Positions 19,499 to 22,531 of a stretch of DNA of 64,000 nt are shown here, piece after piece (within the stretch, counting starts at the first letter, position 1; every line of letters begins with the position of its first letter). The translations under genes and the position numbers were made by a program. Origin of the DNA: Bacteroidota bacterium (GTDB taxonomy: Bacteria; Bacteroidota; Bacteroidia; NS11-12g; UBA9320); contig WGNA01000002.1 of NCBI GenBank assembly GCA_016124755.1, positions 186,001-250,000 on the forward strand, in the 5' to 3' direction. The notes under the pieces were generated by a model. That model worked only from the letters and a program-made list of their open reading frames with translations. It made no database searches and was not told where the DNA came from.

Positions 19499-19523
19499 TT
19501 TGGGGAGTTTGCTGCCAATGAGA

Positions 19524-19539
19524 AAGCCCTTAAGGGCTT
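19524..19539. repeat. 16-bp perfect palindrome AAGCCCTTAAGGGCTT (candidate REP/BIME half)
   Basis: Read directly at 19524-19539, in the intergenic region upstream of the RAYT-like gene. Confidence 0.85.
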
Positions 19540-19693
19540 CTACCCGCGCGTGATCACAAAGATTCGAACTTTTGCAACACGCTTTTGCCATGTTCTGATA
19601 ATATAAAACTGAACGCAGTCATTAATTCGCTTTTTCACTTCCATTTTGAGATTGATTTTTATAGGTTGAGTGTTATTTTTTGGGTTTTCACAA

Positions 19694-19709
19694 AAGGGCT
19701 TAAGCCCTT
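19694..19709. repeat. 16-bp perfect palindrome AAGGGCTTAAGCCCTT (candidate REP/BIME half)
   Basis: Read directly at 19694-19709; arm-swapped version of the 19524 palindrome (same 8-mers AAGCCCTT and AAGGGCTT in opposite order). Confidence 0.85.
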
Positions 19710-19873: not shown

Positions 19874-20326
19874 ATGACACACTCACAGGTATGGGTCCAT
19901 GTACTCTGGACCACGAACAAAAGAAAACCACATCTAGTTGAACCGGTTCTAAAAAAACTCACGGATCATATCCGTGAATACGCGATCTCTAAAAGTATTG
20001 CATTGGATTCTGTTGGAGGAGCGGCGGATCATCTCCACTGTTTGATCGCCTTACCAACTGTTTACAACCTCGCGACGATTATTCAATTGCTCAAAGGAGA
20101 ATCCTCAAGATGGATTAATCAGAATGCTTTTTTGAACAAACCTTTTCATTGGCAGGCGGGATTTATTGCTTGTTCGGTCGACCCGTTTCAGGTTCTTAAA
20201 GTTAGAAAACACATTGGTGATCAGGAGGTTTTTCATTTCGATAATTCACTCGCCTATGAACTTGCGGTCTTTCTTAACCATTCAATGGATACTTCCGGAT
20301 TGATGTCTCTTGCAAATCAGAATTGA
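19874..20326 (+). CDS. IS200-like / REP-associated tyrosine transposase (RAYT/TnpA-like), probably catalytically altered
   Basis: VWVHVLWTTNKRKPHL N-terminus, HUH motif DHLHCLI, VRKHIGDQEVFHF where VRxYIxxQ is expected. ATG at 19874 preferred over the track start at 19844. Confidence 0.85.
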   Translation: MTHSQVWVHVLWTTNKRKPHLVEPVLKKLTDHIREYAISKSIALDSVGGAADHLHCLIALPTVYNLATIIQLLKGESSRWINQNAFLNKPFHWQAGFIACSVDPFQVLKVRKHIGDQEVFHFDNSLAYELAVFLNHSMDTSGLMSLANQN

Positions 20327-20431: not shown

Positions 20432-22531
20432 ATGTTTTATCGCATGCGCAAAAGGCTCAAGCTCTTCATAGCCCTCTTTCTTTTCTCCTTAAACATATCC
20501 GCAAATACTGTTGACTCAACCCTCAACGGTGAAAAGGTTTTTCAAAACCTTGCGGCTGAAAAATTGCCGGGAGGGGCTACGGTTCGATGGACAATCCGTT
20601 ACGAAGACTTCAATCGGATCAACAATCTCATTATTCGTTATCACAAAAAAATTGAAGACAAAAAAGTCTGGAGATATACGGATGTTATTCCAAGTGACAG
20701 TTTGTATTTCAAACTTACCGGTCTTGCGAATTCCGAAAAATATGAGTGGCAGATCGGTTGCCGGTCCAATGGTGGAGACATTCGATCAGTCGTAAAAGAC
20801 GGCACACCTGATGAATCTTCAATGACCTGGTCTAAAGCCGGTAAATTAGAAACAGACAGACCCTGGGGACTTTATAAATTTTTAGTGCTGATCGGCTCTC
20901 TCGGACTCTTCATCTTCGGGATGAAACTCATGAGCGACGGACTTCAACAAAGTGCCGGTACAAGACTTCGGCAGTTGTTGAGCACCATGACATACAACCG
21001 ATACATCGGTGTGTTGAGTGGATTTTTGATCACAGCTTTGGTTCAATCATCATCTGCCACAACGGTGATGACGGTTAGCTTTGTTAATGCAGGTTTGTTA
21101 ACGCTTATTGAATCTGCTGGCGTGATGATGGGAGCGAATATCGGAACCACCATTACAGGTTGGCTTGTATCTATTTTCGGATTCAAGGTTAGCGTATCGG
21201 ATTATGCTCTGCTCATTCTGGCAATTGGAGCTCCGATGCTTTTCATCCGGAGATCATCTGCTAAAGGTTGGGCAAATGCCATCATTGGTTTTGCAATTCT
21301 TTTCATGGGATTGGGATTAATGAAGGACTCAGTGCCGGATCTTGAACACAATTCTAAAATCATTGCCTTATTCACCCAGTTCAAGGGTAATCCTTTTTTA
21401 GGTCGGGTAATGTTTGTGATTCTGGGAACTCTCGTAACGGTTGTTCTTCAATCGTCCAGCGCAACGATGGCTTTAACTCTTACCCTTGTTTCGAAAGGCA
21501 TTATTCCTTTTGATGTTGCAGCTGCTATGATTCTCGGTGAAAATATCGGAACAACCATTACTGCGGAAATTGCCAGTCTTATTGGGAACGTACACGCTAA
21601 ACGGTCGGCAAGAATTCACTCCATGTTCAACATTATCGGTGTTTCCTGGATGATATTCTTAATGCCGTTGTTCCTTAAAGCCATTGTTTCGGTTTTAGAA
21701 CTGGATCTTTCAGATGCAGAAGGGTCAACCATCGGTTTAGCGGCATTTCATACGGTATTCAACGCAACCAATGTTTTACTAACGATTGGTTTTGTACCCT
21801 GGCTTGTGAAACTTGCCACCATCACCGTTCCTTCAAAAGGCGAAGAAGACGAGGTTTTCAAATTGGAATACATCAGTCGGGGCATTACTCATACTCCGGA
21901 ATTGTCTATTCTCGAAGCGAAGAAGGAAGTACATAAATTTGGAACACTTACCCTCAGGATGTCGCACATGGTGAAGGAGCTTCTGAATTCAACCAATCCG
22001 AAAGATCAGAAACGGCTGATTAAAAAACTCGTGAAGTACGAGGAGATAACGGATAAAATGGAAGCAGAGATCGCAAGTTATCTCAGTAAGATTTCTGCAG
22101 ATGACCTTTCTCAGCGCACATCAGAAGACCTTCGTGCCATGCTCAGCATTATTAATGATCTCGAAAGAATCGGAGACATTTATTATGAAATGACCCGAAC
22201 CATTGAGCGAAAGATCGATCACAAAATCTGGTTCCATCAGAAACAACGCGACAGTCTTAACAAACTCTTTATTGTGGTTGACGAATCAATTCAGATTATG
22301 CTTAACAATTTACAGGCAGACATCGACGACCTGGATAAAAACAAAGCCATCAACAAAGAAGGAGAAATTAACAAACTGCGGGACAAGATCAGAAGGAGTC
22401 ACCTCAAGAGCATGGAAACCAAAGAATATAACATTCAGGCCGGCATGATCTACAGCAACCTTTTTGCTTCGCTCGAACGTGTGGGAGATCATGTAATCAA
22501 CGTTACTGAAGCACTTCTGGAACACGACTGA
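20432..22531 (+). CDS. Na/Pi-cotransporter family protein with N-terminal FN3-like extracytoplasmic region and C-terminal PhoU-like domain
   Basis: Two repeated motifs VQSSSATTVMTVSF / LQSSSATMALTLT with GANIGTTITGW / GENIGTTITAE; PhoU-like helices; signal peptide then FN3-like region. Confidence 0.93.
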   Translation: MFYRMRKRLKLFIALFLFSLNISANTVDSTLNGEKVFQNLAAEKLPGGATVRWTIRYEDFNRINNLIIRYHKKIEDKKVWRYTDVIPSDSLYFKLTGLANSEKYEWQIGCRSNGGDIRSVVKDGTPDESSMTWSKAGKLETDRPWGLYKFLVLIGSLGLFIFGMKLMSDGLQQSAGTRLRQLLSTMTYNRYIGVLSGFLITALVQSSSATTVMTVSFVNAGLLTLIESAGVMMGANIGTTITGWLVSIFGFKVSVSDYALLILAIGAPMLFIRRSSAKGWANAIIGFAILFMGLGLMKDSVPDLEHNSKIIALFTQFKGNPFLGRVMFVILGTLVTVVLQSSSATMALTLTLVSKGIIPFDVAAAMILGENIGTTITAEIASLIGNVHAKRSARIHSMFNIIGVSWMIFLMPLFLKAIVSVLELDLSDAEGSTIGLAAFHTVFNATNVLLTIGFVPWLVKLATITVPSKGEEDEVFKLEYISRGITHTPELSILEAKKEVHKFGTLTLRMSHMVKELLNSTNPKDQKRLIKKLVKYEEITDKMEAEIASYLSKISADDLSQRTSEDLRAMLSIINDLERIGDIYYEMTRTIERKIDHKIWFHQKQRDSLNKLFIVVDESIQIMLNNLQADIDDLDKNKAINKEGEINKLRDKIRRSHLKSMETKEYNIQAGMIYSNLFASLERVGDHVINVTEALLEHD

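Follow-up and report, generated by a model that had tools for sequence, protein, structure and literature searches.

In DNA cleavage by HUH enzymes, the first step is attack by a tyrosine. The classification of TnpA_Y1 transposases by Quentin et al. (2018) distinguishes class 1, with the motif Y---Q, class 2, with the motif Y---NP, to which the RAYTs belong, and a small class 3 (PMC6006769). Subclass 1.2 contains proteins of about 148 amino acids with a WQ pair and the signature Y---Q--HH, which occur in Bacteroidetes and Cyanobacteria at low copy number; its table entry for REP sequences is "no" (PMC6006769). Sequences without complete core motifs were put aside in that study as probably non-functional (PMC6006769).

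Here, we describe a gene whose product carries histidine at the position of the tyrosine. The gene lies in the window, the whole 64,000-nucleotide stretch of DNA that was analysed, and its frame is fully open, with GC contents of 51/34/39% at the three codon positions, which is coding-like (Table 1). Pfam Y1_Tnp (PF01797) spans residues 4-117 of the protein (E=4e-21; 75.7 bits, cut-off 23). The AlphaFold2 model has a mean pLDDT of 89.5, and its nearest folds in the PDB are those of ISDra2 and IS608 TnpA (Foldseek probability 1.00). The nucleophile helix reads VRKHIGDQ, and in the model His113 lies in a helix that precedes Gln117, like the tyrosine helix of the family. The histidine codon, the intact HUH motif and the glutamine four residues further on, all reported in the earlier note, are seen in the translation. 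Both HUH columns are histidine in at least 99% of relatives, and the window protein also retains K74, W93-Q94, H121 and E129. Around the gene, Rfam gave no match, and scans for promoters and terminators gave nothing above chance.

Table 1. Positions of the features of the window gene, its upstream repeats and the other intact relatives that lack the tyrosine
Feature	Position	Strand	Basis
TnpA_Y1 gene without Tyr, subclass 1.2-like, 150 aa	19874..20326	+	Translation, Pfam, alignment, AlphaFold2, PDB fold comparison
HUH motif H53-L54-H55 (DHLHCLI), metal ligands, unbroken	20030..20038	+	Translation, alignment of relatives
His113, codon CAC, at nucleophile (Tyr) position, model helix residues 104-115	20210..20212	+	Translation, alignments, model
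Gln117, codon CAG, third metal ligand, kept	20222..20224	+	Gln in 154 of 154 Tyr-bearing relatives
Phe120-His121 where the subclass has HH	20231..20236	+	Column comparison with relatives
REP-like repeat copy 1: GTAG-AAGCCCTTAAGGGCTT-TCTCA, GTAG foot on - strand	19519..19543	-	Exact match to genome-wide unit pattern
REP-like repeat copy 2: palindrome AAGGGCTTAAGCCCTT, degenerate foot	19694..19709	.	Exact palindrome core
Leu variant, L179/L204	L204:2304-2840 (G138)		Intact frame
Asn variant	L211:1459-1944 (G181)		Intact frame
Ile variant	L218:1480-1962 (G172)		Intact frame
Glu variant	L262:1363-1947 (G299)		Intact frame
Ser variant	L268:1477-1911 (G373)		Intact frame

The register of His113 is secure because three comparisons agree. 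A paralogue (G000:C29:28643-29026) that the same genome encodes and that is 41% identical to the window protein reads VRKYIENQ at the nucleophile helix, its segment VRKYIENQEEHH aligning with the window segment VRKHIGDQEVFH. Column 113 is tyrosine in 154 of 162 distinct relatives, and in a first alignment every intact relative had tyrosine there. Finally, the family profile pairs this column with Y132 of ISDra2 TnpA (IQKYIESQ); PDB entry 2xo6, the Y132F mutant of that enzyme, reads IQKFIESQ at the same place. The alignment register proposed from the retained glutamine was thus right. Other tyrosines were considered as the nucleophile and rejected. Y128 is the sole tyrosine beyond residue 97, and its column is mostly E, Q, D or K in relatives. 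Among the relatives that lack the tyrosine, L268 has no tyrosine at all from just before the helix to the end of the protein.

The label RAYT, under which the gene had been introduced, is wrong, because the window protein, like its relatives, matches subclass 1.2; the neighbourhood is nevertheless REPtron-like. The protein reads H---Q--FH, in place of the Y---NP of class 2 and the Y---Q--HH of subclass 1.2, and scores 27 bits against NCBIfam REP_Tyr_transpos, for which the cut-off is 80. It has the core domain, fold and HUH motif of the Y1_Tnp superfamily and departs from it in the catalytic tyrosine. With subclass 1.2 it shares its size, the WQ pair, the glutamine, the second histidine of HH, relatives in Bacteroidota and a low copy number (two such genes in the genome), and alignment and tree support its descent from this group. 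It differs in His113, in phenylalanine for the first histidine of HH, in a DHLH motif where the published form is DH[IV]H (PMC6006769), and in adjoining repeats. By its sequence motifs, then, the product fits a Y1/HUH transposase of the subclass 1.2 type and is not a classical RAYT. The likeness to RAYT/TnpA_REP systems (E. coli TnpA_REP, PDB 4er8) consists in the fold and in a single gene beside GTAG-footed palindromes that are dispersed between genes, whereas here the repeats lie upstream only and number a modest 26 or so. IS200/IS605 elements such as IS608 and ISDra2 provide the closest solved folds, the YxxxQ-type helix and the HUH site, but their hairpin pair brackets the gene; at the window gene there is no such pair, and the search for a second near-identical copy in the genome returned short repeat matches only. 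The same genome also encodes a Y1 protein of another type (L003:1264-1914; G000:C29:166698-166940) with NHLH and YLHNNP motifs and an intact tyrosine, which resembles the published subclass 2.6 and has no copies of the window's repeat family nearby.

Two copies of a repeat, each built on a perfect 16-nt palindrome (19524-19539 and 19694-19709), lie 165-331 bp upstream of the window gene, the second 170 nt from the first. The repeat unit, GTAG-AAGGGCTTAAGCCCTT-TCTCA, is asymmetric, and its pattern has 19 matches in the genome at up to three mismatches, compared to none for the reversed control. There are 21 exact occurrences of the palindrome AGGGCTTAAGCCCT and five further sites with an inverted-core variant, giving at least 26 copies; these counts come from pattern searches and are lower bounds. 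Nineteen of 20 copies examined fall outside ORFs of 120 or more amino acids. About half of them have GTAG as the foot, several have GAAG, and in the rest it is degenerate; a conserved GCGCG-rich stretch precedes the foot. Many copies are identical over 25 nt, and doublets 167-280 nt apart occur at several sites in the genome. Folding of single repeats is energetically modest (z between about -1.1 and -1.8), and the case made here depends on the number and location of the copies rather than on their folding. Around two copies (L074, G000:C17 near 9703; L079, C20 near 382245) several hundred bases of flank are similar, which indicates that part of the family spread within a larger duplication.

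The repeat family is, as far as the genomes searched indicate, private to this lineage, because 96 genomes of the same family or order do not contain it as a family (one isolated match with two mismatches was found) and neither of the genome's two other Y1 genes has a copy nearby. Assignment of the family to the window gene rests on proximity. By a simple estimate, the chance that one or more of 26 copies spread over 4.05 Mb would fall within 400 nt of the gene is about 1%. No repeat was found within 400 nt downstream; a match with three mismatches at 20451 was rejected as chance, since it sits within the next coding ORF.

Five other relatives with intact frames also lack the tyrosine, and the remaining exceptions among the 162 are broken or fragmentary copies. 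These five have Leu, Asn, Ile, Glu or Ser in the column, so the histidine itself is not a conserved feature of homologues; this variety points to loss of the nucleophile, not to a specialised catalytic histidine. All six proteins, the window protein included, keep the HUH motif and the second histidine of HH, and in all six the first is altered: to F in the window protein and to I, F, V, Y and I in L204, L211, L218, L262 and L268, respectively. In Tyr-bearing relatives this position is His in 144 of 153 and F, I or V in none. Loss of the first histidine thus accompanies loss of the tyrosine in 6/6 proteins compared to 9/153 (Fisher p=2e-7; p=4e-4 with one row per inferred loss). The glutamine four residues past the tyrosine column is kept in four of the six and is histidine in the other two. 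The survey is enriched for Tyr-less proteins, a profile of which served as query in one search, so six in about 163 is no frequency. Palindromes lie within 400 nt of all six genes. In four of the six, an upstream pair is spaced 153-180 nt apart, which none of 88 Tyr-bearing relatives shows; this geometry was noticed post hoc, and three of the four examples belong to one clade. In G138, two copies of the palindrome TGACGGTTTAAACCGTCA precede the Leu variant, and the genome contains eight. The independent loss of the tyrosine in other intact relatives suggests that some such enzymes may have become hairpin binders that do not cut. We found no earlier description of TnpA or RAYT proteins without the tyrosine in the literature searched.

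In a tree built without the trait columns, the five other Tyr-less proteins and the Tyr-bearing L178 form a well supported group of six, and the window protein falls outside it. Three changes are needed to account for loss of the tyrosine on this tree. Grouping all six Tyr-less proteins together was rejected by the AU test (p=0.00015), a value to be read with care given that the group was defined after the data were seen and that long branches are present. With five other intact relatives lacking the tyrosine, His113 is no lone accident. L178 reads YIKFQKEYH, with its tyrosine kept and the same first-histidine change as L262, its sister, so in L262 that change predates the loss of the tyrosine.

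Evidence for retention after the loss comes from L211 and L268, which belong to two species of one genus and are each convergent to the same subtilase gene. The shared neighbour makes them probable orthologues by synteny, although the tree places L268 nearer L218, and suggests vertical retention. They are 46% identical (pN 0.36, pS 0.85), compared to 74% for the subtilase (0.17 and 0.77). Judged by dN, the Tyr-less protein changes about 2.5 times as fast as its neighbour, though not neutrally; synonymous sites are saturated, so these values give only a rough impression of constraint, and the genus has no further genome. The frame appears to have been kept under constraint in the G181/G373 lineage, which belongs to another clade than the window protein. 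Searches with the window protein in about 890 genomes, and in plasmids, viral contigs and genome contigs, returned no orthologue above about 42% identity against which selection on this gene after the loss could be gauged.

Our best explanation, to which we assign a probability of about 0.5, is that the window protein is a former transposase that no longer cleaves DNA and has been retained as a binder of hairpins. A single-stranded DNA transposase of the TnpA_Y1 family, similar to subclass 1.2, would have lost its DNA-attacking tyrosine while keeping the fold and the metal site formed by the HUH motif and glutamine, and its association with the lineage-specific hairpin repeats would have outlasted that loss. 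The repeats were probably amplified by a Tyr-bearing ancestor of the window gene. A phosphotyrosine link would no longer form, leaving the repeats neither cut nor moved, while single-stranded hairpins may still be recognised. Binding of hairpin DNA without cleavage is the simplest reading of the sequence evidence. The most plausible targets are the repeat pair upstream of the gene and the dispersed copies, and candidate roles include (auto)regulation through the upstream pair, protection of the repeats from other transposases and competition with active ones. The earlier note had proposed a dead or domesticated enzyme that may bind REP-like DNA without cleaving it; the adjoining repeat family and the other intact Tyr-less relatives support this idea, with binding as a prediction. 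Several observations count against our explanation: the long branch of the window protein, expected from relaxed constraint and from an isolated lineage alike, the want of an orthologue above about 42% identity, the order of changes in L262, the absence of repeats downstream, and the derivation of the retention evidence from a separate clade.

An alternative is that an ordinary TnpA lost its tyrosine and His120 lately and is drifting towards a pseudogene, with the repeats as relics. This is a serious rival, if one we hold less probable than not by some way, because there is no orthologue above about 42%, the branch is long, and the protein departs from the family at six of 29 strongly conserved positions (142 relatives do so at 2.5 on average). 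The terminal branch is the longest or nearly the longest in the set (1.16-1.19 changes per site), a single transition (T to C) makes CAC from a tyrosine codon, the gene occurs in one genome only, and the family contains obvious pseudogenes (L009 and L033). Against it stand the open, coding-like frame, the retention of the metal ligands and of 23 of the 29 conserved positions, and the open frames of the parallel Tyr-less lineages; moreover, 15 relatives deviate at as many positions or more, and most of those have the tyrosine. The idea that the histidine reflects a recent TAC-to-CAC mutation stands in part: the gene may have died recently, but more than that one mutation in an otherwise standard motif is involved, because the first histidine of HH has also become phenylalanine.

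Two further explanations would preserve activity. Dimers of IS608 TnpA have trans active sites, and the window protein, with its HUH motif and glutamine kept, could form a mixed dimer with the 41% identical paralogue, whose tyrosine helix would serve the intact HUH site. A second copy is present in G138 too. We regard this as improbable, since heterodimers are doubtful at 41% identity and the paralogue has no palindromes nearby. Histidine acts as a nucleophile in other phosphotransfer enzymes, and His113 might form a phosphohistidine link and still move the repeats, in keeping with the intact metal site and the many repeats identical over 25 nt. The residues in the other Tyr-less proteins indicate that no nucleophile was selected there and make a substitute nucleophile unlikely as a general answer, and TnpA_REP enzymes with Tyr mutated to Phe at this position failed to cleave DNA when assayed (PMC8266576). 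The literature searched yielded no HUH enzyme that uses a histidine nucleophile, and we consider this explanation very improbable. That codon 113 was misassembled or miscalled is hardly credible: the residue hangs on one base, but His120 is altered too, and five other genomes show loss of the tyrosine with the same accompanying change.

TldR, a nuclease-dead TnpB that works as an RNA-guided regulator (PMC13418256), is an analogy only: it comes from the same transposon family and has likewise given up catalysis for a role in the host, but it is an unrelated protein, and its function is demonstrated where that of the window protein is inferred. Loss of the nucleophile with the metal site and DNA partner kept would show mobile-element proteins becoming host DNA-binding proteins. 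We speculate, tentatively, that Bacteroidota may repeatedly turn REP-associated TnpA into cleavage-dead binders of their own repeats, for example regulators acting through an upstream hairpin pair with a spacing of about 155-180 nt; such proteins would be a TnpA counterpart of the nuclease-dead TnpB regulators.

Two points of the 2018 classification, that sequences lacking core motifs are probably non-functional and that subclass 1.2 is without REPs, now look incomplete. Perfect palindromes with stems of 8 bp or longer lie no more than 400 nt from the gene in 54 of 88 Tyr-bearing relatives with sufficient flank. With flanks of 380 nt, 57/90 genes have one, compared to 20/450 shuffled flank sets, and 3/90 have a palindrome inside the gene. 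Judged from these flanks, the published "no" for REP in subclass 1.2 (PMC6006769) would need correction, with genome-wide repetition of gene-side palindromes shown for G000 and G138. Typical palindromes of the Tyr-bearing relatives have 9-bp stems and 2-nt loops and lie 60-75 nt upstream and 25-60 nt downstream. In flanks such as those of L038, L051, L056 and L063, palindromes of 18-20 nt often follow ATTG or TAA, not GTAG.
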